Shown here piece after piece: positions 32,905-47,980 of a DNA stretch of 64,000 bases (position 1 is its first letter; each line of letters begins with the position of its first letter). The notes under the pieces are model-generated. The model searched no databases, was not told the origin of the DNA, and worked only from the letters and a program-made list of their open reading frames with translations. Origin of the DNA: Ornithinimicrobium pekingense DSM 21552 (GTDB taxonomy: Bacteria > Actinomycetota > Actinomycetes > Actinomycetales > Dermatophilaceae); the NCBI RefSeq assembly GCF_000421185.1, contig NZ_ATWJ01000008.1:186001-250000 (forward strand), read 5' to 3'. The position numbers and the translations under genes were made by a program.

Positions 32905-34410
32905 TCAGGGCCAGGGGTGCTCCAGCGCGACCCGCAACGCGGCCTCCCCCTCCTCGGCAGCCTCCGCCCGCGCCGTCTCCCGCCCGGCGAGCACGCCGTA
33001 GGTGTAGGTCGGCTCCCCCGCCCGCTCCGCCGTGCCTGCGATCTCGCGCAGCCAGCCGGCGGCCAGGGCCGCGTCCTGGACGGCGCCGAGCGTCTCGGTG
33101 ACCTGCTCCCAGGTCGCCGCGGCCTGCGCCGCGTCCTTCCCGAGCGCGGGCGCCAGCGCCTCGCAGGCGTAGCGCACGGCCTTGGCGCGCTTGCGGGCCT
33201 CGTGCAGCAGGTGGAGCCGCTGCACGCCCTCCGCCGCCGCTGCCGACCGCGCCTCGACCCGCGCCCGGCCGACGGCCCTGGCCACCAGGTCCGGCAGGAC
33301 CTTCCCGGCCCGCCGGCTCGCACGCCCCCGCCACGGGGGCTCGGCCAGCAGCTCGAGCAGCCGGTCGACCAGCTCGCGGTAGCGGTCGGAGTCCATCACC
33401 TCGACGAGTGCCTGGTGGGCCTCCGCGTGCCGCCGGTCCGCCTCGGCACGGACCCGCTGGCGGACGGGGCCGACGACCTCCTCCTCCGGCAGCTCGTCGA
33501 GGGCGGCGAGGAGGTGGTCGCGCATGACCTCGGCGTCCCGCGGCTGCCCCAGGGCGGTCGCGAACCACCTGATCTCCTCGCGCAGCGGGTCGCTGACCTC
33601 TCGGTCGAGGAGCCGCCGGAAGGTGCGTAGCGCGCTGCGCAGCCGCCGGGTCGCGACGCGGCTGCGGTGCACGGCGTCCGGGACGTCCGCGCGCACGTCG
33701 TCCTCCCGGGCGACGACGACCGCGACCTGCGCGGCGAGGTAGGCCAGCACCACGTCGGCGGCGGGGCCGTCGGCGGCGGGGCCCTCACCACGCCCGGCCC
33801 GCGCGGGCCGGTCGCCCAGGGCCCGGGACAGCTTGGAGGGGTGGTCGGCGAGGGTCACGCCCTGGTCGGCGAAGGCGTCGGCGACCGCCCCGAGCAGGGC
33901 CTGGTCGCCGTCGACGAGCTCGACCTCCAGCTCGCGCCAGGTGCTTCCCTCCGGCAGGGCCGTCACCCGGTCGTCGCACAGCTGGGCCAGCACCACGTCG
34001 TGCCGGTCCGGGTCGAGCAGGTCGACCTCCAGGCGGTGGGTGGTGAGCACGGCGGCCGGGAGCAGCGCACCCTCGGGGCCGTCCGGCCACGCGTGGCCCA
34101 GTGCGGCCCGCACCTCGTCACGCAGCTCCTGCGGGACCCGCATCCGCCCTGGCCCCTCCCCCAGGGGCGCGTGCACCTCCAGCCGCGTGCCGTCCGGGCG
34201 CGGCAGCTTCAGGTGCCAGCCGGCGTCCGCGCCGCCCTCGCGGCGGCGCAGGGTGATGCGGTGCCGCACGAGGAGCAGGTCGGGGGTGTCCAGGTAGACG
34301 GCGCGCATGCGGTGCTCGCGCACCGGGCCCACCTCGGCGAGGTCGCCCGGTGCGGGCAGCGGGGCGTCCTCGCCGATGGCGAACTTCAGCTCGGACTCGA
34401 CCTGCCGCAT
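32905..34410 (-). CDS. CYTH-CHAD domain protein
   Basis: A 501-residue protein. The N-terminal CYTH triphosphate tunnel domain (residues 1-200) shows the ExExK motif as ESELKF at residues 5-10, then RHRITLRRREGG and WHLKLPRPDGTRLE. The C-terminal CHAD domain (about 220-500) is all-helical with conserved His and Arg residues (VHRSRVATRRLRSALRTF, LHEARKRAKAVRYACEAL). CYTH domains hydrolyse inorganic triphosphate or similar; CHAD domains bind polyphosphate. A role in polyphosphate metabolism is likely and fits with the pst operon nearby, although that link is inference. It follows the RraB-like gene by 14 nt. Confidence 0.9.
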   Translation of the reverse strand: MRQVESELKFAIGEDAPLPAPGDLAEVGPVREHRMRAVYLDTPDLLLVRHRITLRRREGGADAGWHLKLPRPDGTRLEVHAPLGEGPGRMRVPQELRDEVRAALGHAWPDGPEGALLPAAVLTTHRLEVDLLDPDRHDVVLAQLCDDRVTALPEGSTWRELEVELVDGDQALLGAVADAFADQGVTLADHPSKLSRALGDRPARAGRGEGPAADGPAADVVLAYLAAQVAVVVAREDDVRADVPDAVHRSRVATRRLRSALRTFRRLLDREVSDPLREEIRWFATALGQPRDAEVMRDHLLAALDELPEEEVVGPVRQRVRAEADRRHAEAHQALVEVMDSDRYRELVDRLLELLAEPPWRGRASRRAGKVLPDLVARAVGRARVEARSAAAAEGVQRLHLLHEARKRAKAVRYACEALAPALGKDAAQAAATWEQVTETLGAVQDAALAAGWLREIAGTAERAGEPTYTYGVLAGRETARAEAAEEGEAALRVALEHPWP

Positions 34411-35734: not shown

Positions 35735-35778
35735 GGTAACAGGACGGTCGCGCAGCGGTATCAGCCGGGTATCAGCAC
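35735..35778 (+). promoter_or_regulatory. four 11-bp direct repeats, SARP/OmpR-type binding array
   Basis: Units begin at 35735, 35746, 35757 and 35768, in exact 11-bp phase. They start GGTAAC, GGTCGC, GGTATC and GGTATC; the last two share GGTATCAGC perfectly. The array ends 50 bp before the ATG of the first BTAD gene. SARP proteins bind direct repeats of about 11-bp period next to the -35/-10 region. Confidence 0.65.
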
Positions 35779-35827: not shown

Positions 35828-38800
35828 ATGACCGGCATCACCGTGCTGGGACCCGTGGCCGTCGGCGACGACGGCGCGCTGTCCCCGCGGGACCGGGTCG
35901 TGCTGTCGGTGCTGGTCGCCCGGCGCGGGCGCGAGGTGCCGGCCGAGGTCCTGGCCGAGGCGCTGTGGGGCGAGGACCTGCCGGCCTCCTGGCACAAGGT
36001 CGTGCAGGGCTGCGTGGCCCGGCTGCGGCGCCGGCTGGGGCACGAGGCGATCGTGACCGGCGGGGGCGGTTACCGGCTCGCGGTCCCGGCGGAGGACGTG
36101 GACGCCGCTCGGTTCGAGCGGCTGGTCGACCGCGCACGCGAGCTGCTGGTCCTGGGGCACGCCGACCAGGCCGCGTTCACGGCCGACCAGGCCCTCGCCC
36201 TGTGGCGGGGTATGCCGCTCGCCGACCTGGCGGACTGGGCGCCCGGCCGCGGCGAGGCAGAGCGGCTCGGGGAGCTGCGCCTGCGCGCCGAGGAGCTGCG
36301 GCTCGATGCGTTGCTGGCCGCGGGCCGGCATTCGGAGGTCCTGCCGGAGGCCGGGCTGCGGGTCCGTGAGGAGCCGCTCCGCGAGCACCGGTGGGCTCTC
36401 CTCGCCCGGGCGCAGTACCAGGACGGACGCCAGGCCGAGGCCCTGGCCACCCTGCGCCGCGCCCGGGAGACGCTCACCGAGGAGCTGGGGCTGGACCCCG
36501 GGGCCGAGCTCGCCGGCCTCGAGCACGCCGTGCTCACCCAGGACCCGGCGCTCGCCGTGGCCGTTCCCGGGATGCCCGCGTCGGCCTGCCCCTGGCCGGG
36601 CCTGGCGGCATACGACGTCGACGACGCCGACGCGTTCTTCGGCCGCGAGGCCGAGCTCGCGCAGTGCCTGGAGCGCCTCGACCGGTCGGGCTTCCTGGCG
36701 GTCGTCGGGCCGTCGGGCTCGGGCAAGTCCTCCCTGGTGCGCGCCGGTCTGGCCGCGCGCCTGCGCCGGGACGGCCGCCGCGTGCGGGTCATCACCCCGG
36801 ACCCCCGCCCTCTGGACGCGCTGGCGGCCGCGACCTCCGACCCTCACCGTGGCCTGGTGCTGGTCGTCGACCAGTGCGAGGAGATCTTCGGCGTCTCGGT
36901 GCCGCCGGCGGTGCGTCAGGCGTTCCTCACCAGCGTGGCCGAGCACGCGTGGAGCGGGACGACCGACGTGGTCCTGACGCTGCGGGCCGACCGGATGGGC
37001 GAGCTCGCGGCGTTCCCCGACATGGCGCGGCTCGTGGAGGAGGGGCTCTACCTGCTCAAGGGCATCGGTCCTGACGGGCTGCGCGCGGCGATCGAGCGAC
37101 CGGCCAGGCGGGCCGGCCTCCTGCTGGAGGAGGGGCTCGTCGACCTGCTCGTGCGCGATGTCGAGGGCGAGCCCGGGTCGCTGCCGCTGCTGGCGCACGC
37201 CCTGCGCCAGACCTGGGAGCGACGGGAGGGCAGCACGCTGACGGTGGGGGGCTACCGCGCCTCGGGCGGCATCCGGGGGGCGGTGGCCCGCTCCGCCGAG
37301 CAGGTCTACGAGAGGGCCAGCCAGGAGCAGCGGCACGCGCTGCGCGAGCTGATGCTGCGCATGGTGCAACCGGGGCCCGGGGGCGACCCGGTGCGGACCA
37401 GCGTCCCGCGGGCCGTCCTGACCGACGAGCGGCACGTCGCCGTCGTCGAGCAGCTGGTCCGGGCCCGGCTGGTGACCGCCGCGGAGGACCGGCTGGAGAT
37501 CGCGCACGAGGCGCTGGCCCGGGCCTGGCCCCGCCTGCAGGCCTGGCTGGCCGACGACGTGCAGGGCGAGCGGATCCGGCACCACCTGGCCGCGGCCGCC
37601 AGCGCCTGGGACGGGATGGGGCGTCCGGAGAGCGAGCTCTACCGCGGGGCGCGGCTGGCGGCTGCCCGCGAGTGGCGGGACGCCGGCACCCACAGCCTCA
37701 GTCAGGTCGAGCAGGACTTCCTCGCCACCAGCGAGGCGGCGCACCGGTCACGGCTCGCCCGCGCCGAGGACGAGGCACGGCGGCAGCGGCGGCTCAACCA
37801 CCGGTTGCGCCTGCTCGCCGTCGGAGCCGTCGTCCTCGCCCTCGTCGCGGCCACCTTCGGGGCGGTCGCCCGTGCCCAGTGGCGGGACGCGCGGACGGCC
37901 AACGAGCTCGCCGTCGTCGAGGCTGCGCGGGCACGGTCGCACGAGCTGGCGGCGGCGGCGCTGGCGGACCTGCCGGCGGACCCCGCTCGGGCGAAGTCGC
38001 TGGCGGTGCTGGCCGGTGAGGTGACCGACCCCGGACCGCAGACGGCGGGTGCCCTGCACGCCGCCCATGCTGCCGATCCCGTGGTCGCGCGGGTGAGCCT
38101 GCACCGGCGGACGGCGTGGACACGGCTCTGGACCGCCCTGCGCCCGGACGGAGAACGGGTGGCGATGGCCGGAGAGAGCGCCGTGGAACCCAGCCTGGCG
38201 CTCGAGGTGCGCGACGCGGTGTCCGGGGAGCTGGTGTGGGAGTGGCTGCCGCAACGGCGCCCCGGGCACGAGTCGGCCTACGTGGCGGGCGCCGCCTACT
38301 CCCCCGACGGGTCCGTGCTCGCCACCGGCGTCGTGTGGCACCCGACCTTCGAGGAACGGTTGGCACCCTCCCACGAGGACGCACCACCTCCCCCGGACGG
38401 CCTGCTCGGGATCCACCTGCGCGACGCGCGGACGCACGAGCCTCTCGGCGTGATCGACGTCGGGCCGTGCGGCGGCTGGCCGCTGGGGGTCACGGCCGAC
38501 CGGGTGCTCGTCCGTGCGCTCGTACCCTCGACCGACCCTGCGTCGGTCCCCGTGACGGACCACGAGGTCCTGGCCGGCTGCCGGTGGTGGGAGGGCGGAT
38601 GGGCCAACTACGTGGTGGACCGGCAGACCGGGGACCGCACCCTGCTGGCGGTCACCGACCCCTCGTTGCTGCAGTGGAGCGTGGGCGCCGCCCTCAGCGG
38701 TGACGGGTCCGTCGCCGCCGCCTGGCACCAGAGCAGCAGCGACAGCACTCTGGGCGACCGCGAAGGGCACGAGTCCACCGTCCTCGTCGACACGACCTCC

Positions 38801-40663
38801 GGGAAGGAGCTGGGACGCATCGACCACGCCTTCCCGGTCGACCTCGACGCCGCGGGCGAGCGGGTCCTGCTGCGCGACCGGGACGTCGAGGACTCCAACG
38901 TCCGCTCCGCGAACACCTGGCGGGTGGTGCGGGTCGACGACCTCAGCACCCTGGCCACCTTCGCGGGGCACGAGGGACGACCGACCTACGCGGCGTTCTC
39001 CGCCGACGGCACCAGCGTCCTGAGCACCGGGCTGGACAACGTCCTCCTCGAGTGGGACGCCTCGAGCGGCACGCTGCTGCGCAGGGTGGTCGGCGCGGGG
39101 TCGGGGCACCCCGACCCTGCCGGGACGTCCCGCACGGTCATCCCGCGCCCGCTCACCGGTGGCGCCGTCGTCGTCGACACCTCTCCCCGTGGGGAGGGGT
39201 GGGCCGTGCCCCCCTGCGACGGCCTGGGCGCCCCCGACCAGCTCCGGGTCGTCGACGGGTCGGTCGTCGCGGGGCGTGGTTGCGACGGCCGGCCGGGGAC
39301 CCTCGAGGTCTTCGACCCCCTCACCGGTGGCGTGCGGCAGATGCCCGGCGCGGTCCGGAACGAGGCGTTCGGGGTCTCGGCCGACGGTGAGAGGGTCGTG
39401 TCCCAGGGCGGGGACGAGCCCGGTCCGTTGCAGGTGCGGCAGCTCGGGTCGGAGGAGGTGGTGCTCACGCTCGAGGCGTCCTCCTCCGCGAGCGCGGTCA
39501 GGTGGTCCCCCGACGACCGCTGGGTGGCCGCGCTCGACGGAGCCACAGGTCGGGTGGGGGTGTGGGACGCCACGACCGGCGACCAGGCCTGGTCGGCCGT
39601 CCTCGGCGGGGACCAGGGCTTCAGCGCGGCCTGGGACCTGCTGTTCTCCACCGACTCCGCCCGCCTGCTGGTGTCGACGGACGACGCCCGGCTGATCGCC
39701 GTCGGCACGGAGACGGGCGAGGAGCTGGGGGCTGCCGCCCTGCCCTCGGGCGGCAACCACATCTCGCCGGGCCTGGTCGGCCACCGGGGCGACGGCGCGG
39801 TCGCGGTCGTGAGCCCCCTGCGCAACAACGCCACCAGCACCTCGCTGCTGCTGCTGGACCCGACGACCCTGGAGACCAGGCAGACCTTCTCCAGCGTCGT
39901 GGACGGATCGGTGCGCTCGGCCGCGGTGTCCCCCGACGGGACACGCGTCGCAATGGCCACGAGCGAGGGGTTCGTCGGCGTCTGGGACCTCGCCACCGGT
40001 GCCGCCGTGGACCGTGCCGACCTGGGGCTGGGCAGCCTGGAGGGGGTGCAGTGGACCGCCGACGGGGACCTGCTCGTGCTGAGCGCGGAGGGTGCCATCG
40101 TCCGGGTCACCTCGGACCCTGCACAGCTGACCTCGCTCGTGCGCGGCACGCTCACCCGGGGCCTCACGCTCAGCGAGTGCGCGGCCCACGCCATCGACCC
40201 CTGCCCCGACCTGGGCACGCTGAGGGGTGCGGCACCGACCGTGCCGGACGAGCTGCGCGGCAGCTACACCCTCACCTGGACCGTCGAGGAGCTGCGCGAG
40301 GCGGGGGCGGCCGCCGTCGCCGACGCCTACGGCGCAGGTCCCGGCCCGGAGGCGCAGCAGACGCTCGACGACTTCGCGGCCGCCATGGCCGGTACCTACC
40401 GTCTGACCTTCTCCGAGCACGGCTACTCCGTCACCTCGCCCAGCGGGCAGGAGTGGTGCACCGGTGCCGTCACCCGACGCGCGAACGACCCCGACCGGTT
40501 GCTTCTCGGGGCCGACCGCGGGGCGGGGTGCGTCGACTTCCACTACGCCGAGACGGGCTGGCGCCTCGAGGGGGACGAGCTCGTCCTCCCGCCCGAGACG
40601 TTCCGCGGCAGCCAGCTCGACGCACTGCTGTGGACCGGCCGCCCGCTGGAGCGGGCCGGCTGA
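35828..40663 (+). CDS. BTAD/SARP-type winged-helix, nSTAND NTPase, transmembrane, WD40-like propeller regulator (paralogue 1)
   Basis: A 1611-residue multidomain protein. The order is: OmpR-like winged helix (residues 1-90, with SWHKVVQGCVARLRRRLG as recognition region); BTAD helical domain (95-245, ending LTEELGLDPGAELAGLEHAVL); nSTAND-type NTPase with Walker A GPSGSGKS at 294-301 and Walker B LVVDQCEEIF at 345-354; helical region with EIAHEALARAWPRLQAWL; one transmembrane helix at about 660-684 after a basic stretch (RRQRRLNHRLR); a helical stalk; WD40-like repeats (about 760-1440, for example VGVWDLATGAAV); and a C-terminal calycin-like beta domain (about 1480-1611, with GTYRLTFSEHGYSV). 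Cys pairs 881/918, 1130/1152, 1451/1459 and 1544/1568 lie only after the membrane helix, as expected for disulfides outside the cell. Likely a membrane-bound transcription regulator sensing an outside signal (inference). A tandem paralogue follows after 26 bp. Confidence 0.85.
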   Translation: MTGITVLGPVAVGDDGALSPRDRVVLSVLVARRGREVPAEVLAEALWGEDLPASWHKVVQGCVARLRRRLGHEAIVTGGGGYRLAVPAEDVDAARFERLVDRARELLVLGHADQAAFTADQALALWRGMPLADLADWAPGRGEAERLGELRLRAEELRLDALLAAGRHSEVLPEAGLRVREEPLREHRWALLARAQYQDGRQAEALATLRRARETLTEELGLDPGAELAGLEHAVLTQDPALAVAVPGMPASACPWPGLAAYDVDDADAFFGREAELAQCLERLDRSGFLAVVGPSGSGKSSLVRAGLAARLRRDGRRVRVITPDPRPLDALAAATSDPHRGLVLVVDQCEEIFGVSVPPAVRQAFLTSVAEHAWSGTTDVVLTLRADRMGELAAFPDMARLVEEGLYLLKGIGPDGLRAAIERPARRAGLLLEEGLVDLLVRDVEGEPGSLPLLAHALRQTWERREGSTLTVGGYRASGGIRGAVARSAEQVYERASQEQRHALRELMLRMVQPGPGGDPVRTSVPRAVLTDERHVAVVEQLVRARLVTAAEDRLEIAHEALARAWPRLQAWLADDVQGERIRHHLAAAASAWDGMGRPESELYRGARLAAAREWRDAGTHSLSQVEQDFLATSEAAHRSRLARAEDEARRQRRLNHRLRLLAVGAVVLALVAATFGAVARAQWRDARTANELAVVEAARARSHELAAAALADLPADPARAKSLAVLAGEVTDPGPQTAGALHAAHAADPVVARVSLHRRTAWTRLWTALRPDGERVAMAGESAVEPSLALEVRDAVSGELVWEWLPQRRPGHESAYVAGAAYSPDGSVLATGVVWHPTFEERLAPSHEDAPPPPDGLLGIHLRDARTHEPLGVIDVGPCGGWPLGVTADRVLVRALVPSTDPASVPVTDHEVLAGCRWWEGGWANYVVDRQTGDRTLLAVTDPSLLQWSVGAALSGDGSVAAAWHQSSSDSTLGDREGHESTVLVDTTSGKELGRIDHAFPVDLDAAGERVLLRDRDVEDSNVRSANTWRVVRVDDLSTLATFAGHEGRPTYAAFSADGTSVLSTGLDNVLLEWDASSGTLLRRVVGAGSGHPDPAGTSRTVIPRPLTGGAVVVDTSPRGEGWAVPPCDGLGAPDQLRVVDGSVVAGRGCDGRPGTLEVFDPLTGGVRQMPGAVRNEAFGVSADGERVVSQGGDEPGPLQVRQLGSEEVVLTLEASSSASAVRWSPDDRWVAALDGATGRVGVWDATTGDQAWSAVLGGDQGFSAAWDLLFSTDSARLLVSTDDARLIAVGTETGEELGAAALPSGGNHISPGLVGHRGDGAVAVVSPLRNNATSTSLLLLDPTTLETRQTFSSVVDGSVRSAAVSPDGTRVAMATSEGFVGVWDLATGAAVDRADLGLGSLEGVQWTADGDLLVLSAEGAIVRVTSDPAQLTSLVRGTLTRGLTLSECAAHAIDPCPDLGTLRGAAPTVPDELRGSYTLTWTVEELREAGAAAVADAYGAGPGPEAQQTLDDFAAAMAGTYRLTFSEHGYSVTSPSGQEWCTGAVTRRANDPDRLLLGADRGAGCVDFHYAETGWRLEGDELVLPPETFRGSQLDALLWTGRPLERAG

Positions 40664-40689
40664 CCGCCTCACCAGGGGACGGAGCTCCC

Positions 40690-43600
40690 GTGACCGGCAT
40701 CACCGTGCTGGGACCCGTGGGGGTCGGTGACCAGGGGTCGCCGCTCCCGCCGCGGGACCGGGTCGTGCTCTCGGTGCTGGTCGCCCGACGGGGGCACGAG
40801 GTGCCGGCGGACACGATCGCCGAGGCCCTCTGGGGTGAGCACCTGCCGCCGTCCTGGCACAAGGTCGTCCAGGGCTGCATCGCGCGGCTGCGGCGCCGCC
40901 TCGGGCACGACGCCATCGTCACCGACCGTGGTGGCTACCGCCTCAGCGTCCCGCCCGAGTCGGTCGACGCAGGCCGCTTCGAGCGCCTGGTGCACCACGC
41001 CGGGGACCTGCTCGCGCTGCACCAGCCCGACCAGGCGGCGTTCACCACCGACGAGGCCCTGGCCCTGTGGCGGGGTATGCCGCTCGCCGACCTCGTGGAC
41101 TGGCCCCCCGGGCGCGGCGAGGCCGAGCGCCTCGGGGAGCTGCGCCTGCACGTCGAGGAGCTGCGCCTCGAGGCCCTCCTCGCCTCGGGGCGGGTGGCGG
41201 AGGCCCTGCCGGAGGCCCGCGCCCGGGTGCAGGAGGAGCCGCTGCGCGAGCACCGCTGGGCCCTGCTGACGCGCGCGCTCTACCAGGACGGTCGCCAGGC
41301 CGAGGCCCTCACCACGATCCGGCAGGCGCGCGACACCCTGGCCGATGAGCTGGGGCTCGACCCGGGCCCCGAGCTGGCGGCTCTGGAGCACGCGGTGCTG
41401 CGGCAGGACCCCGACCTCGCCGTCCCGGTCGCGGAGACGGTGGCGGCCGGGTGCCCGTGGCCCGGCCTGGCGTCCTACGACGTGCAGGACGCGGACTCTT
41501 TCTTCGGCCGTGACGCCGAGGTCGCCGAGTGCCTCGAGCGGCTGGACCGGACCGGTCTGCTGGCCGTCGTGGGCCCCTCCGGCTCGGGCAAGTCCTCCCT
41601 CGTCCGGGCCGGGCTGGCGGCGCGCCTGCGCCACCTGGGTCGGCAGGTCGTCGTCCTCACGCCGGGGCCGCGGTCCCTGGACGCGCTGGTCCCGCCGGCC
41701 GGCACCTCCGCCACGGTGCTGGTGATCGACCAAGGCGAGGAGATCTTCGCCCCGACGGTGCCGCTCACGGTGCGGTCGACCTTCCTGCACCAGGTGACGG
41801 AGCAGGCTGCACGCGGCCCCGTGGTGCTGACCCTGCGCGCCGACCGGCTCGGCGAGCTGGCCGTATACCCGCGGGTCGCCCGGCTCGTCGAGGACGGTCT
41901 CTACCTGCTGACGCCTCTGGACACCCGGGGCGTCTGCGAGGCCATCGAGCGCCCGGCACGTCGTGCGGGGCTGCTGCTCGAGCAGGGGCTGGTGGACCTG
42001 CTGGTGCGTGAGGTCGAGGGAGAACCGGGCTCGCTGCCCCTGCTCACCCACGCCCTGCGCGAGACGTGGGCGCGACGGGTCGGCTCGACGCTGACGGTCG
42101 AGGGCTACCGGGCCTCCGGCGGCATCCGCGGAGCGGTGGCACAGTCAGCCGAGCGGATCTACCAGGCCGCCACCGAGGAGCAGCGGCGGGCCCTGCGCGA
42201 GCTCCTGCTGCGCCTGGTGCAGCCCGGGCCCGCGGGCGAGCCGGTGCGCACCAGCGTCAGCCGCTCCGTCGTCGACGACGAGCACGCACCGGTCGTCGAG
42301 CAGCTGGTGCGGGCGCGTCTGGTCACGGCGCACACCGACCGCCTGGAGATCACGCACGAGGCCCTCGTCCGGGCGTGGCCCCGGCTGCAGGCGTGGCTGG
42401 CCGAGGACGTGGAGGGCGAGCGGCTGCGCCACCACCTCGCGGCGGCGGCGCAGGCGTGGGACGCCATGGACCGGCCGGCGAGCGAGCTCTACCGCGGTGC
42501 CCGGCTCGCCGCCGCCCGCGAGTGGCGGGACACCGGCCTGCACCGGCTGACGACCCTCGAGCGCGCGTTCCTCGACGCGGGCGACGCGGCGGAGCGGTCC
42601 GAGCTCACCCGCGCCCAGCACGAGGCGCGTCGGCAGCGACGGCTCAACCGGCGGCTGCGGCTGCTGGCCGTCGGGGCCGTCGTCCTCGCCCTCGTGGCCG
42701 TGACCTTCGGCACGCTCGCACGCCTGCAGTGGCAGGAGGCCGGCGACGCGCGTGCGGCCGCCCAGGTCGAGGCGGACGCGGCCCGGGCGCAGGAGACGCT
42801 GGCCCGCTCGCAGGAGCTGGCCGCCGCCTCGGTCGCCGCGGTCGGGCAGGACCCGGCCCTCGCCAGGACCCTGGCCGTCCTCAGCGCGGCCGAGGGTCGC
42901 CCCACACCGCAGAGCACGGACGCCCTGCACCGCGCGCTGTTCGCCGACCACGTCGTGGCACGGACGGGCACGGACCGGGCGCCCGGGCGGCTGTGGGCCG
43001 TCCTGCACCCGGAGGGGGACCGCGTCGCGATGACGGCAGAGCACGCCTACCAGCCCGCGGACGGCATCGAGGTCCGGGACCCGCGGACCGGTGCGCTGGT
43101 GTGGGAGTGGGTCCCCCCGGAGGAGCCGGAGTACGGCTCGGTGGTCGTGGCGGGGGCGGAGTACTCACCCGACGGGACGGTGCTCACCGGAGGCGTGCTC
43201 CGAGACCCCGCCGGCCAGGTCCGTCCGGACCCCGTCCCCGACCAGCCCCCACCCCCGCCGGAGGGTGTGGTCGGCGTGCACGTCTGGGACGCCACGACGC
43301 ACGAGCTCCTGCAGGTCGTGGACGTCGGTCCCTGCGGAGGGTGGCCGGTCGCGGTGGCGGGCGACGCGCTCCTCGTCCGGACGCTGGCCGCCCGACCGAG
43401 CGACGGTCTCGACGCTGCCGGGCGCGAGCGCTTCCTGCGAGCGTGCCCGTGGCAGGAGGGCGCGATCGCCACCCTCCTGGTCGACCGGAGCACCGGGCGG
43501 TCCCGGCAGGTGAGCATCACCGAGGACCTCAACATCACCCTCACCGTCGGCCACGCACTCAGCGACGACGGCTCCCTCGCCGTCGTGCCGGACCTGCAGA

Positions 43601-45591
43601 CCTGGGACGCCGTGCTGCTGGACGTCCCGACCGGCCGGGAGGTGGGGCGGACCGACAACGCCGTCGCCCTCGACCTCGACTCCACCGGTGAGCATCTCCT
43701 GACCATCGACGTCATCCCGTTCGGCAACGACCTGTGGCGCATCGTCTCCGTGCCCGGGCTGGAGACGGAGGTGACCTACACGGGCCGCAGCTCCTGGAGC
43801 AGCTACGGGCGCTTTTCCTCCGACGACGCCACGGTCTGGACGACGGGGACGGAGAACGCGCTGGTGCAGTGGGACGCCGGCACCGGGATCCACCTGCGCA
43901 CGTTGCCGGCCGTGGGCAGCGGCGCTCCCAGCGTCGCCGGGACGCGCGTCCTGGTGCCGCGCCCCGAGACCGCCGGTGCCGTCCTCCTGGAGACCCGCCC
44001 CCACGGCGACCTGTGGTCGGTCCCGTCCTGCGGCGGCGCGGCCGGGACGGACCGCCTGCGGGTCACCGACACCCTCGTCGTCGTCGGACGAGACTGCGAC
44101 CCGGCGCCCGGCGGCCGGGTGGAGACGCTGACGACCGCCGGCGAGGCCGTCGCCAGCCACGACCTCCTCAGCTGGGAGGCCTTCGAGGTCTCCCCGGACG
44201 GCCGTCGGGTGGTCGGTCGGGAGGGCGCCCTCGACCCCGGCACCGGAGCACCGCACGTCGGCGCGCTGACGGTGCGGGACCTGCGCACGGGTGCGGAGGT
44301 CGTCGAGCTCGAGGGCCTCTGCGACCACGCCCTGATCACCTCGCTCGCCAGCGTCGAGGGCGGCGACCCGGCTGCCGAGGGGTGCCGTCGCTTCCCCGAC
44401 GCGCCCTTCCGGTTCATGACCGGGTCGGTCGCGTGGTCCCCGGACGGGCGATGGATCGCGGCGGCCAGCGAGGGCCTCGGGGTCTGGGACGCACGGACCG
44501 GGGAGCTGGTCACCACGCTCGGCGGCACGGGCTCCGCCGCCAACCAGCGGTGGGGCCTGCCGTGGGACCTCTCCTTCACCGACGACTCCCGGCGCCTGCT
44601 GATGACGACCCTCGGCCGGTACGTCGTGCCGGTGGACACGACGACCTGGGAACCGGGCCCGCCCGCACGGCTGCAGGTGCAGAGCGCCCACTCGGCGGGC
44701 CTGGTCGGGACCGCCGCCGACGGCGCGCTGGTCGTCGTCACGCCGCTGCACCAGATCGCCGGCAGCACCACCGTCCTGCTGCTCGACCCCGACGACCTCG
44801 AGGTGCGGCAACGGTGGGACGCCTCCACCGACGCGTCGGTGCAGTCGGCGGCGCTCTCTCCCGACGGCACCCGCCTGGCGCTGGCCCGCAGCGACGGTCT
44901 CGTCACCGTGTGGGACCTGGCCAAGCAGTCGCGGGTCGACCAGGCCGGCCCCGGGCTGGGACGCCTGGACGGCGTGCGGTGGCTCAGCGACCGCCACCTC
45001 GTCGTGCTCAGCGCGAGCGGCCACGTCACCACGGTGACCACCGACGCCGACGAGCTCCTCGGGCTGGCGCGGGAGTCCCTGTGGCGCGGCCTGACCCAGG
45101 CCGAGTGCACCTCGCACGCGCTGCCGGCGTGCCCGACGCTCGCGGACCTGCGCGGCGACGGGCCGGTCGTGTCCCCCGGCCTGCAGGGCAGCTACGAGGT
45201 GACGTGGGGTGCGGACGAGCTGAGGACCACCCTCCTGCGGTGGGCGCGCGAGTCGCTCGGGGACCTCGACCCCGACTCCGGAGCCTTCCTGGCGGAACAG
45301 GCAGAGCTCGCGGAGGGCACCCTCCGGCTGCAGCTGCGCGGGTCGGACTACACCGTCAGCCGCGGGGACGGCGAGGAGGTGTGGTGCACGGGGTCGGTCA
45401 GCCCCAGCCCGAGCGACCCTGACCGGCTGGTGCTGTGGGCCGACGCCGGCGAGCGGTGCACCGACGTGAAGTACGCCGAGCTCGGCTGGCGGGTCGACGG
45501 CGACCGTCTCGTCCTGCCGCGGGGGGAGTTCCGCGGGGACGACGTCGACCGGGTGCTGTGGACCAGCAAGCCCCTGGAACGGACGGGCTGA
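40690..45591 (+). CDS. BTAD/SARP-type winged-helix, nSTAND NTPase, transmembrane, WD40-like propeller regulator (paralogue 2)
   Basis: A 1633-residue paralogue of the preceding protein with the same architecture from end to end. It shares long identical blocks such as MTGITVLGPV, RDRVVLSVLVARRG and GPSGSGKSSLVRAGLAARLR. Walker B is VIDQGEEIF. The transmembrane helix (LLAVGAVVLALVAVTFGTLA) lies at about 658-680. Cys pairs 882/919, 1114/1136, 1473/1481 and 1566/1590 match paralogue 1; an extra pair, 1211/1232, is unique to this copy and sits in an insertion of the propeller. The N-terminal halves are far more alike than the sensor halves, which suggests a shared DNA target or signalling mode but different ligands (inference). 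It starts with GTG 40690, 26 bp after the first stop, and has no promoter of its own visible, so the two form an operon. Confidence 0.85.
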   Translation: MTGITVLGPVGVGDQGSPLPPRDRVVLSVLVARRGHEVPADTIAEALWGEHLPPSWHKVVQGCIARLRRRLGHDAIVTDRGGYRLSVPPESVDAGRFERLVHHAGDLLALHQPDQAAFTTDEALALWRGMPLADLVDWPPGRGEAERLGELRLHVEELRLEALLASGRVAEALPEARARVQEEPLREHRWALLTRALYQDGRQAEALTTIRQARDTLADELGLDPGPELAALEHAVLRQDPDLAVPVAETVAAGCPWPGLASYDVQDADSFFGRDAEVAECLERLDRTGLLAVVGPSGSGKSSLVRAGLAARLRHLGRQVVVLTPGPRSLDALVPPAGTSATVLVIDQGEEIFAPTVPLTVRSTFLHQVTEQAARGPVVLTLRADRLGELAVYPRVARLVEDGLYLLTPLDTRGVCEAIERPARRAGLLLEQGLVDLLVREVEGEPGSLPLLTHALRETWARRVGSTLTVEGYRASGGIRGAVAQSAERIYQAATEEQRRALRELLLRLVQPGPAGEPVRTSVSRSVVDDEHAPVVEQLVRARLVTAHTDRLEITHEALVRAWPRLQAWLAEDVEGERLRHHLAAAAQAWDAMDRPASELYRGARLAAAREWRDTGLHRLTTLERAFLDAGDAAERSELTRAQHEARRQRRLNRRLRLLAVGAVVLALVAVTFGTLARLQWQEAGDARAAAQVEADAARAQETLARSQELAAASVAAVGQDPALARTLAVLSAAEGRPTPQSTDALHRALFADHVVARTGTDRAPGRLWAVLHPEGDRVAMTAEHAYQPADGIEVRDPRTGALVWEWVPPEEPEYGSVVVAGAEYSPDGTVLTGGVLRDPAGQVRPDPVPDQPPPPPEGVVGVHVWDATTHELLQVVDVGPCGGWPVAVAGDALLVRTLAARPSDGLDAAGRERFLRACPWQEGAIATLLVDRSTGRSRQVSITEDLNITLTVGHALSDDGSLAVVPDLQTWDAVLLDVPTGREVGRTDNAVALDLDSTGEHLLTIDVIPFGNDLWRIVSVPGLETEVTYTGRSSWSSYGRFSSDDATVWTTGTENALVQWDAGTGIHLRTLPAVGSGAPSVAGTRVLVPRPETAGAVLLETRPHGDLWSVPSCGGAAGTDRLRVTDTLVVVGRDCDPAPGGRVETLTTAGEAVASHDLLSWEAFEVSPDGRRVVGREGALDPGTGAPHVGALTVRDLRTGAEVVELEGLCDHALITSLASVEGGDPAAEGCRRFPDAPFRFMTGSVAWSPDGRWIAAASEGLGVWDARTGELVTTLGGTGSAANQRWGLPWDLSFTDDSRRLLMTTLGRYVVPVDTTTWEPGPPARLQVQSAHSAGLVGTAADGALVVVTPLHQIAGSTTVLLLDPDDLEVRQRWDASTDASVQSAALSPDGTRLALARSDGLVTVWDLAKQSRVDQAGPGLGRLDGVRWLSDRHLVVLSASGHVTTVTTDADELLGLARESLWRGLTQAECTSHALPACPTLADLRGDGPVVSPGLQGSYEVTWGADELRTTLLRWARESLGDLDPDSGAFLAEQAELAEGTLRLQLRGSDYTVSRGDGEEVWCTGSVSPSPSDPDRLVLWADAGERCTDVKYAELGWRVDGDRLVLPRGEFRGDDVDRVLWTSKPLERTG

Positions 45592-45624: not shown

Positions 45625-46884
45625 TCAGGACCGTGGGCCGTCGTCCTGCAGGGTCAACGGCTCCGGAGCGCGCAGCCACGGCAGCACGCCCACGACGCAG
45701 ACGAGCCCGGTGACGAGGAAGGCGGCCCGAAAGCCGAGGGCGTCGGCGACGACGCCGATGAGGATCGGCCCCACGATCGCCCCGCCGTCCTGGGCCATCT
45801 GGAATCCGGACAGCACCGGCCCGCCGTTGCGCTCATGGCCCACCACGTCGGCCACCGCGGCCTGCTGGGCGGGGTTGACCAGCCCGGCACCGATGCCGGA
45901 GACCACCGACAGGCCGAGCAGGACGACCAGCCCCGCCGTGGTGGGCAGCACCGTGGCCATCCCGAGCAGCCCCATGGACACCCCCATGACCAGCAGCCCG
46001 GTGATGACCAGCGGCCTGCGTCCCACCCGGTCGGCCATCCGGCCGGAGAACTGCAGGGTGGCGGCCGTCCCGACCGCCCCCACCGCCAGGACGGCGCCGG
46101 CGACCCAGGGCCGGTCGAGGACCGCGATCGCCAGCAGCGGCAGCACGGCCATGCGCACGCCGAAGTTGGTCCATCCGTTGGCCGCGCCGGAGACGAGGAC
46201 GGCGCGGTAGACCGGCGAGCCCCAGGCCTCCTTGACCCGCATCGTCGGGTGCGTCGCCCGGTCCGGGGCGGGGCGCAGCCGGGCCCCGCCCAGCCCCACC
46301 GCGACCACCGCGGCGGCGAGAAGCAGCGCGACGCCATACACGACGAAGGGGGCGCGCAGCCCCCAGCCGGCGAGGAGGCCACCGATCAGCGGCCCGACCA
46401 TCCCGCCGACGAGGAAGGCCGAGCCGTAGGCCGAGGAGACCCGGCCGCGGGCGCGCGGCGGGGCCAGCCGCACCAGCAGCGCCATCGCCGAGATGGTGAA
46501 CATCGTCGAGCCGACGCCACCCAGGCCCCGGAAGAGCAGGAGCTGGCCGTAGGACTGGGCGAAGGCCGTCGCGAACGAGGAGACCGACACGACGAGCAGG
46601 CCGGTCAGGTAGACCGGTCGCTCACCGAGCCGGCCCACGAGGAACCCGCCGGCGGGGGCGAAGACCAGCCGGAAGAAGGCGAAGGCCGAGACGATGACGG
46701 AGGCCGCCGCCACCCCGACGTCGAAGGACCGGGCGTAGGCCGGCAGCACCGGGGAGACGATGCCGAAGCCGACGGCGATGACGAACGCGGCACCGACGAG
46801 GATCCAGATCTCGCGGGGTATGGGGTCGCGCGGGGCGGGCGTCGCCGCTCCCGCTCCCCCGCCGCGCTCAGCGGGCCTGCGCAC
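45625..46884 (-). CDS. MFS transporter
   Basis: A 419-residue, 12-helix major facilitator. Motif A-like GGFLVGRLGERPVYLTG follows helix 2, and GRMADRVGRRPLVITG marks the second half. It resembles multidrug or sugar efflux permeases; the substrate is unknown. The start is tentatively GTG 46882-46884, which overlaps the end of the ATPase gene by 17 nt; no ATG lies closer to the first helix. It converges on the second BTAD gene with a 33-nt gap. Coupling to the ATPase gene suggests a joint function. Confidence 0.82.
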   Translation of the reverse strand: MRRPAERGGGAGAATPAPRDPIPREIWILVGAAFVIAVGFGIVSPVLPAYARSFDVGVAAASVIVSAFAFFRLVFAPAGGFLVGRLGERPVYLTGLLVVSVSSFATAFAQSYGQLLLFRGLGGVGSTMFTISAMALLVRLAPPRARGRVSSAYGSAFLVGGMVGPLIGGLLAGWGLRAPFVVYGVALLLAAAVVAVGLGGARLRPAPDRATHPTMRVKEAWGSPVYRAVLVSGAANGWTNFGVRMAVLPLLAIAVLDRPWVAGAVLAVGAVGTAATLQFSGRMADRVGRRPLVITGLLVMGVSMGLLGMATVLPTTAGLVVLLGLSVVSGIGAGLVNPAQQAAVADVVGHERNGGPVLSGFQMAQDGGAIVGPILIGVVADALGFRAAFLVTGLVCVVGVLPWLRAPEPLTLQDDGPRS

Positions 46885-47980
46885 GGAGATGCTCGCGCAG
46901 GTAGGGCAGGGTGAAGTCGACGAAGCCGTGCCCCGCCGCCTGGACCAGCTCCCGGTCGATGAGGCGGGCGCGGTAGACGTTCTGCTGCTGCATCGGCACG
47001 CCCATCCGTTCGGCGACCTGGCGGGTGGCCGCGGGACCGTCGTCGGCGGCCATGGCGCGCAGGTAGGCGCGTTGTCCCTCCGGCAGCGCGCCGAGCGCCG
47101 GGGCGTGGACCAGCCTGCCCATGCGCTCCACGACCAGCGGCCGGGTGCCTCCCACGTCGTCGGGGGTGATCTCCGGACGCTGGGGCGCGACGCGCCAGGC
47201 GTGGTAGCCGACGAGCTGCAGCAGGTAGGGGTAGCCGTGGACGATCCGGGCGTAGCGCTCCAGCGCCTCCTCGCCGATGCTGCGGCCCGCGTCCTCGACC
47301 GTGGCCCGCGCCGCGGTGCGCACGTCCTCGTCGGCGAGCACCGCGAGGTGGACCCGCTCGGCGCGCCGCAGGAAGGTCGTGCCGGCCTGCCGCAGCAGCT
47401 GGTCGATGCCGGTGGGCAGCCCGGCGGCCGCGAAGGCCACCTCGCGGTCGTCGCGCACCAGGTGCTGGTAGGTCGCCGCGAACCGGCCGACGACGTCGGG
47501 GGAGGCGGCCTGGACCTCGTCGAGGGTGAAGAGCAGGCCGGTCTCGTGCCCGACCAGCACGTCGAGGAGCCGGCCGAGCAGCTGGGCCAGCGACTGCCGC
47601 ACGGGGTAGCGGTCCTCCACCTCGGTGGAGACGGAGCCGACGGCGCTGATCCCGCCACCGGTGAACCGGCGGCGCACGGCGGTGGTGTCGTGCTCGGCGA
47701 GGAGGGCCGGCACGGTGGAGGCCTCGAGCTCCTCGAGCATCCCGTCACCCTCGGGCAGCCGCACGACCAGCCATCCTCGTGTGCGCGCGATGTCCTCCAG
47801 CTCGTTGAGGACGACGGTCTTGCCCATCCCCCGCGCTCCGCTGACCAGCAGCGAGCGCAGCGGGGACCCGGGGCCCTCGTCGAGGGCCACGTCGAAGTCC
47901 TGCAGCAGGTCCTCGCGGCCGGCGAGCACGCGCGGGGACACCCCGAAGCTGGGGCGGAAGGGGTTGGCTCCGGTGACCAC
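46868..47980 (-). CDS. AAA/STAND-like ATPase with C-terminal winged helix (ORC/Cdc6-like)
   Basis: A 370-residue P-loop protein of the AAA ATPase_2/Orc1-Cdc6-like type. It opens with FGVSPRVLAGREDLLQDF, has Walker A SGARGMGKT near residue 47-55, Walker B LLFTLDEVQAA near residue 150, an arginine-rich region, and a C-terminal winged helix (ATRQVAERMGVPMQQQNVYRARLIDRELVQ). Such stand-alone ATPases are frequent in actinobacteria and their role is mostly unknown; regulatory and toxin-related roles have been proposed. It is the first gene of a two-gene unit with the MFS transporter. Upstream lies a striking array of GTTACA repeats. Confidence 0.75.
   Translation of the reverse strand: MVTGANPFRPSFGVSPRVLAGREDLLQDFDVALDEGPGSPLRSLLVSGARGMGKTVVLNELEDIARTRGWLVVRLPEGDGMLEELEASTVPALLAEHDTTAVRRRFTGGGISAVGSVSTEVEDRYPVRQSLAQLLGRLLDVLVGHETGLLFTLDEVQAASPDVVGRFAATYQHLVRDDREVAFAAAGLPTGIDQLLRQAGTTFLRRAERVHLAVLADEDVRTAARATVEDAGRSIGEEALERYARIVHGYPYLLQLVGYHAWRVAPQRPEITPDDVGGTRPLVVERMGRLVHAPALGALPEGQRAYLRAMAADDGPAATRQVAERMGVPMQQQNVYRARLIDRELVQAAGHGFVDFTLPYLREHLRAQAR

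Follow-up and report, generated by a model that had tools for sequence, protein, structure and literature searches.

Tandem SARP-headed nSTAND1 proteins of Ornithinimicrobium pekingense with a predicted transmembrane helix and an operator-like triple repeat

Can a single polypeptide sense outside the cell, pass the signal through a nucleoside triphosphatase (NTPase) switch and bind DNA inside? Two adjacent genes of Ornithinimicrobium pekingense DSM 21552, here called A and B, raise this question. They lie in a window of 64,000 nucleotides, the whole stretch of DNA that was analysed (contig NZ_ATWJ01000008.1, positions 186,001 to 250,000). We favour, with a probability of roughly 0.7, the reading that A and B form a pair of single-pass receptors. 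In each, a likely extracytoplasmic sensor, predicted to comprise two propellers and a lipocalin-like barrel, would govern a cytoplasmic nSTAND1 switch, which in turn would control DNA binding by the SARP head, likely at a triple repeat before A.

Domain order and sensor half of the gene pair

The domain order, Walker motifs, hydrophobic helix, conserved cysteines and operator-like repeat with its geometry are read from the sequence. The two genes and the parts ahead of the helix are as follows.

35828..40663, + strand: gene A, 1611 aa, ATG start
35876..36079, + strand: OmpR-type winged helix of A (Trans_reg_C), residues 17-84 (Pfam; PDB sequence matches AfsR and EmbR)
36098..36535, + strand: BTAD of A, residues 91-236 (Pfam)
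36590..37630, + strand: nSTAND1 NTPase of A, residues 255-601, Walker A at 294 (Pfam and motif)
40690..45591, + strand: gene B, 1633 aa, GTG start, 26 bp behind A
40963..41400, + strand: BTAD of B, residues 92-237, with the winged helix (18-85) directly before it (Pfam)
41455..42477, + strand: nSTAND1 of B, residues 256-596 (Pfam)

A preliminary description of the locus had proposed adjacent paralogues at these positions, each carrying a winged helix, BTAD and nSTAND NTPase with intact Walker motifs. The reading frames (A from the ATG at 35828, B from the GTG at 40690 to the stop at 45591), the Pfam domain search and the motifs agree with it. A and B share 55% identity overall, are the sole full-length copies found in a scan of the 3.85-Mb genome, and are presumably co-transcribed. 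Both begin with a winged helix followed by a BTAD, the order that defines the SARP family; Trans_reg_C scores 29.6 bits in A and 28.4 in B (cut-off 26.2), and the BTAD E values are 1.3e-33 and 2.7e-36, respectively. In a PDB sequence search with A, the head matched AfsR (8hvr/8k60) and EmbR at E values of about 1e-26. Membership of the STAND clade nSTAND1 follows from PF20703 (356 bits, E 4.8e-106 in A; 330.5 bits, E 2.7e-98 in B; cut-off 27.1), the Walker A motif GPSGSGKS at A294 and B295, and a Walker-B-like stretch near residue 343 that reads LVLVVDQCEE in A and TVLVIDQGEE in B. WD40 repeats (PF00400) are also above the cut-off of 27 (47.6 and 29.2 bits), together with a propeller fold in the model of A. 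Neither protein is an AfsR-type large SARP, having nSTAND1 and propellers instead of NB-ARC/NOD and TPR behind the head, and the NCBIfam AfsR model scores 126.5 and 145.9 bits, far under its cut-off of 1430.

The sensor half contains the following parts.

38081..39178, + strand: predicted propeller 1 of A, residues 752-1117, 28 strands, with C881 and C918 (model)
39185..40111, + strand: predicted propeller 2 of A, residues ~1120-1428, 28 strands, with C1130 and C1152 (model)
40178..40204, + strand: cysteine pair C1451/C1459 of A, behind propeller 2 (alignment)
40238..40660, + strand: lipocalin-like barrel of A, residues ~1471-1611, with C1544 and C1568 (VIA fold call)
45013..45588, + strand: C-terminal domain of B, residues 1442-1633 (aligned to that of A)

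The two seven-bladed propellers and the lipocalin-like fold are model predictions; for A, residues 640-1611 were modelled by AlphaFold with a predicted local distance difference test score (pLDDT) of 87.2 and a predicted template-modelling score (pTM) of 0.83. The preliminary description was thus right about a WD40-like propeller fold but not about the number, two being modelled rather than one. For the calycin- or barrel-like C terminus that it proposed, VIA calls the domain lipocalin-like, but Foldseek returned nothing at E 0.001 and weak calycin matches at best (E 0.023), so the fold call depends on VIA. A search with the C-terminal domain found P0122 (185 aa) and P0121 (117 aa, on a 582-base contig). 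P0122, matched at E 1.8e-4 with an hhalign probability of 98.1, is a stand-alone version of the barrel with a signal peptide and a lipobox, the latter read by eye. The barrel is rare, occurring in 4 of 31 genus genomes and, among 296 class genomes, in the own genome only.

A and B are 74% identical over residues 1-680 and 46% over residues 640-1611, as expected if the switch stays constant while the sensors diverge. Given the added barrel and the divergence of their sensor halves, A and B may respond to different cues, perhaps lipid-like or at the cell surface. The lower similarity of the sensor halves and the patchy presence of the C-terminal domain would also suit a conflict system that senses phage or competitors, its SARP head turning on a response, a role of the sort put forward for other nSTAND1 proteins; nSTAND1 is named in conflict systems in the available part of one study (PMC8195603). 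We give this a chance of about one in five. PADLOC matches are short and confined to the P-loop (residues 285-348, best E 7.7e-5), A and B have no toxic effector domain in Pfam, and no operon partner is common to all 16 loci listed. Neighbourhoods are alike only in pairs, G014 with G023 and Knoellia with Phycicoccus Soil748.

The helix and the side of the membrane

One hydrophobic segment separates switch from sensor in each protein.

37805..37867, + strand: predicted transmembrane helix of A, residues 660-680, with an R-rich flank before it (hydropathy; within the modelled helix 642-714)
42655..42717, + strand: predicted transmembrane helix of B, residues 656-676 (hydropathy)

A transmembrane helix had been proposed at residues 660-684, and a segment is indeed present at A660-680. 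It is the single strongly hydrophobic segment of A, with a Kyte-Doolittle (KD) value of 2.27 (next window 1.22); that of B reaches 2.24 (next 1.52). In the model of A the segment lies inside a continuous helix, residues 642-714, although the membrane part is of low confidence (block pLDDT 57-73). Fifteen SARP proteins of relatives served as a control; over the 510-594 residues read beyond the head, their best windows were 1.33-1.77, with only L024 and L031 above 1.6; the 19 closest proteins gave 2.07-2.71. Basic residues are more numerous before the helix than after it in 15/15 closest proteins with counted flanks (P0001-P0019 including A and B, minus P0003, P0011, P0012 and P0018, in which no helix was placed). 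The same bias holds for 38 of 40 sampled nSTAND1 proteins, a sample comprising 40 of the 42 best nSTAND1 places outside the own genome in 59 class genomes.

Eight cysteines behind the helix (C881, C918, C1130, C1152, C1451, C1459, C1544 and C1568) are invariant in 17 alignment rows. A further pair behind these eight is jointly present or absent with its loop (13/17 rows), and each of the 19 closest proteins, among them A and B, carries a total of either 8 or 10 cysteines beyond the helix. The pattern extends to the 35 sampled proteins with at least 380 residues behind the nSTAND1 helix peak. Exactly two cysteines fall within the last 60 residues in 34 of these (the exception is L055), spaced 24-26 apart in 32 of the 34 and 3 and 21 apart in the remaining two. 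Over 1000 shuffles of the sensor halves, at least two tail cysteines occurred in a mean of 0.56 and a maximum of 4 of 35 proteins. The number of cysteines behind the helix is even in 29/35 and three in 6/35. We infer that the cysteines form disulfides, and the helix likely spans the membrane so that the C-terminus lies outside.

Alternatively, the helix may be an anchor or simply buried and the propellers cytoplasmic, making A and B membrane-associated or soluble AfsR-like regulators. Several observations weigh for this and against a sensor outside the cell. Cysteines before the helix are conserved too: C62 in 13/14, C254 in 13/14 and C280 in 14/14 rows (3 of the 17 rows are cut before the helix). 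Cysteine invariance was therefore dropped as a sign of an outside position; the argument is the even number of cysteines and not their conservation, and our confidence in the receptor reading and in the general proposal given below was lowered slightly and that in a cytoplasmic sensor half raised. Low cysteine content failed its calibration as a second such sign, because secreted-like genes of the same loci are not cysteine-poor (0.86% against 0.84% in others), and the 0.08% cysteine in the sampled sensor halves therefore proves nothing alone. Further, the WD40 propellers of Apaf-1-type STAND proteins are cytosolic, and the fold matches 3sfz. Against these stand the single helix with its basic side toward the DNA-binding half, the even cysteine numbers with the tail pair, and the occurrence of the barrel as a lipoprotein. 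On balance we judge a cytoplasmic sensor half improbable.

The proposal that sensing occurs outside, with DNA binding and NTP hydrolysis inside, is thus upheld in part. Charge flanks, cysteine pairs, the lipoprotein barrel and the SARP-type operator described below favour it, and the topology itself is a prediction. The layout also fits that of ToxR/CadC-like regulators, with an OmpR-type head and one predicted membrane helix, the sensor side again being presumed.

The triple repeat before A

Upstream of A is a new element, described here.

35735..35773, + strand: operator-like direct repeat of three units, GGTAAC-N16-GGTATC-N5-GGTATC, 93 to 55 bp ahead of the A start codon

Its units stand at -93, -71 and -60 from A, reading GGTAWC at 0/+22/+33 over 39 bp. 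The available part of one study describes SARP sites as direct repeats spaced 11 or 22 bp (PMC10936776). Both spacings are present before A and its relatives, making the repeat a candidate operator.

The geometry was scored as three like 6-mers at 0, +22 and +33 within 140 bp upstream of 21 related-head genes. It recurs before 12 of them, with six identical columns in 8 and five in 4, A being among the latter. Random stretches gave six columns in 0/5000 and five or more in 8/5000, and 229/5000 reached four. Three of the 12 genes (G195a, G195b and G258) had been found via an operator search; without them the count is 9/18. Later-fetched genes (n=5) came from ten later regions, of which L175 yielded no head and L176 and L177 were left out. 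G195c, G223 and G171a pass the test; inspection by eye shows GATATC units at 0/21/32 before G171b, and nothing of the kind precedes G111. O. cerasi, Knoellia #1 and an uncultured Phycicoccus agree in four of the 6 columns. In Kribbella the spacing is 21/11, and the Microbacterium units are degenerate; Knoellia #2 shows an imperfect pair, and Phycicoccus Soil748 a GGTGTC pair at a displaced position. Five columns are reached neither by B nor by any of five distant SARP-nSTAND1 genes, one of which gets to four. Several relatives have a TTGACG hexamer immediately behind the repeats, a placement compatible with either activation or repression.

Exact triples number 8 in the 31 genus and 296 class genomes, and 6 of these lie directly before a SARP-head gene. 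All 4 genus genomes with a barrel-bearing receptor have one. The seventh (G018:C7:67063-67079, L115) has the same neighbours as the G014 receptor, and the receptor is missing. With the neighbours kept and the receptor gone, this triple is probably a relic. The eighth (G000:C10:36667-36705, L098 and L136) is the only other perfect copy found in the own genome. It sits between a gene for a 76-aa secreted Gly-rich peptide and one that we take to be TrpR-like, followed by what is presumably hisG. The TrpR-like gene was found in 31/31 genus genomes, with 25 of 30 loci placed by motif. Only the own copy is preceded by the triple, against 0/24 others (one with just 418 bases upstream); the comparison left out G020, G008, G019, G003 and G001 (not placed) and G025. 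The G000:C10 triple is perhaps a relic, perhaps a target private to this genome. Viral contigs scanned with the TrpR-like protein yielded no match.

The recurrent geometry with its SARP-like spacing fits SARP binding and predicts self-regulation. It suggests that the SARP head would bind the triple repeat and that A and B likely control their own promoter. Another regulator might instead own the site, the SARP head binding elsewhere. Weighing for this are the absence of the repeat before G111, the imperfect pair of Knoellia #2 and the displaced pair of Phycicoccus Soil748. The repeat nevertheless precedes such genes across differing genomic contexts, and the position of six of the eight exact triples points the same way. 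Moreover, G223 and G171a change all three units alike (GGTATG x3 and GGTACT x3), and in both the recognition-helix stretch departs from the KVVQGC type usual in the GGTATC group; G195c (GGTACA, KNLQSC) is an exception to this rule. We therefore think it doubtful that the repeat serves a different regulator.

Beyond the identification of domains, we infer a mechanism by analogy with other STAND proteins, in which a ligand would act through NTP-driven assembly. The ligand would meet the propellers or the barrel, the resulting rearrangement would pass across the helix, and nSTAND1 would assemble in an NTP-dependent manner. SARP heads could then sit side by side on the phased repeats, three phased half-sites being suited to three heads brought together. 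A membrane-bound precursor cleaved on an outside signal, freeing the SARP-STAND half as a soluble regulator, would explain how the DNA-binding half gets to promoters and would resemble other membrane-bound regulators that use cleavage, but the own promoter as likely target needs no release, and we consider this reading unlikely.

Regulon prediction from the operator with at most one mismatch was rejected, giving 13 matches against 12 for a reversed control in the 296 genomes. G014 (G014:C1:3170678-3175596, L042) has its receptor gene broken into two reading frames, with the operator intact. Separately, the repeat GGTATCACTCTGGTATC, or one near to it, recurs in the genus at L103, L104, L106, L107, L110, L112 and L116-L119, with no SARP gene in the 3-kb loci. 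It lies close to what we take to be a Doc-like open reading frame in L104 and L117 and is perhaps another regulator's site.

A class-wide core and its relation to known systems

A reading of the layout as singular is not supported by the sample. A hydrophobic peak follows nSTAND1 in 40/40 sampled proteins (KD 1.76-2.89); a SARP head is present in 2 of them, and a hidden Markov model detected the family barrel in none. Among P0020-P0120, 44/101 have the Walker pattern, and in 41 of these 44 a helix lies 280-520 residues behind it. Relatives also carry other heads. P0017 has kinase and cyclase parts ahead of nSTAND1, helix, propellers and barrel as in A and B, and P0019 has a cyclase head on the nSTAND1-helix-propeller core without the barrel (heads from Pfam and source labels, boundaries read by eye). 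The nSTAND1-helix-propeller layout is therefore widespread, and it carries several kinds of effector, the SARP head among them.

We lean, somewhat beyond even odds, towards a more general proposal. Bacterial nSTAND1 proteins would be general transmembrane STAND receptors, with an outside double propeller with a tail disulfide, one helix, an inside NTPase and an interchangeable effector (SARP, kinase, cyclase or TIR). They would thread the part order of Apaf-1 through the membrane, and in the SARP branch a triple repeat coevolving with the recognition helix would wire the receptor to its own promoter. STAND switches are usually discussed as sensors inside the cell. If the topology is true, bacteria would have many STAND receptors whose single chain senses on the outer side, acts on the inner and takes swappable outputs, uniting an immune-type NTPase switch and a surface receptor. 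The SARP branch lends itself well to experiment, since its likely operator is a short and defined site that recurs; one protein would allow measurement of DNA binding, NTPase control and sensing of the outside.

Apaf-1 is soluble. In A and B, by contrast, a predicted membrane helix parts the switch from the propellers, and a DNA-binding domain serves as effector. PkwA of Thermomonospora curvata differs in having a kinase as effector and is not known to carry a STAND domain. Other nSTAND1-WD40 proteins (TIR, kinase, XRE and cyclase heads) share the nSTAND1-helix-propeller core and often the C-terminal cysteine pair; they differ in the effector and, in the sample, in lacking the barrel. ToxR/ToxS, VtrA/VtrC and CadC are not known to have an NTPase or a propeller.

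ToxR/ToxS and VtrA/VtrC are nonetheless nearest in topology, judging from the available part of one paper (PMC9214523), with the lipocalin-like part in a second protein rather than in the same chain as in A and B. As far as the accessible descriptions go, AfsR and Streptomyces SARPs share the winged helix and BTAD head, the STAND NTPase behind it and the 11-/22-bp direct repeats. AfsR itself continues with NOD and TPR, and A and B with nSTAND1, a predicted transmembrane helix, two predicted propellers and a barrel. That known SARPs are cytosolic is consistent with a SARP review, which lists small, medium, large (NB-ARC and TPR) and SARP-LAL classes and in its available part mentions neither membrane, cytoplasm nor WD40 (PMC10972967). 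The claim that no characterised member has the full layout also holds: a literature search of titles and abstracts for BTAD/SARP with WD40, nSTAND1 or membrane gave no match, subscription papers being mostly outside its scope. The available parts of conflict-NTPase papers (PMC8195603, PMC7159879, PMC10907252) describe variants of other systems that lie near the membrane, and some STAND sensors with membrane segments; the layout of A and B is absent there, as it is from that of a prokaryotic WD40 survey (PMC5587647).

Around the pair, Rfam matched nothing in the 64-kb window. An MFS transporter gene adjoins B and is overlapped by an AAA_16 ATPase gene (46868-47980, minus strand), and a CYTH-CHAD protein is encoded upstream of A (32905-34410, minus strand).
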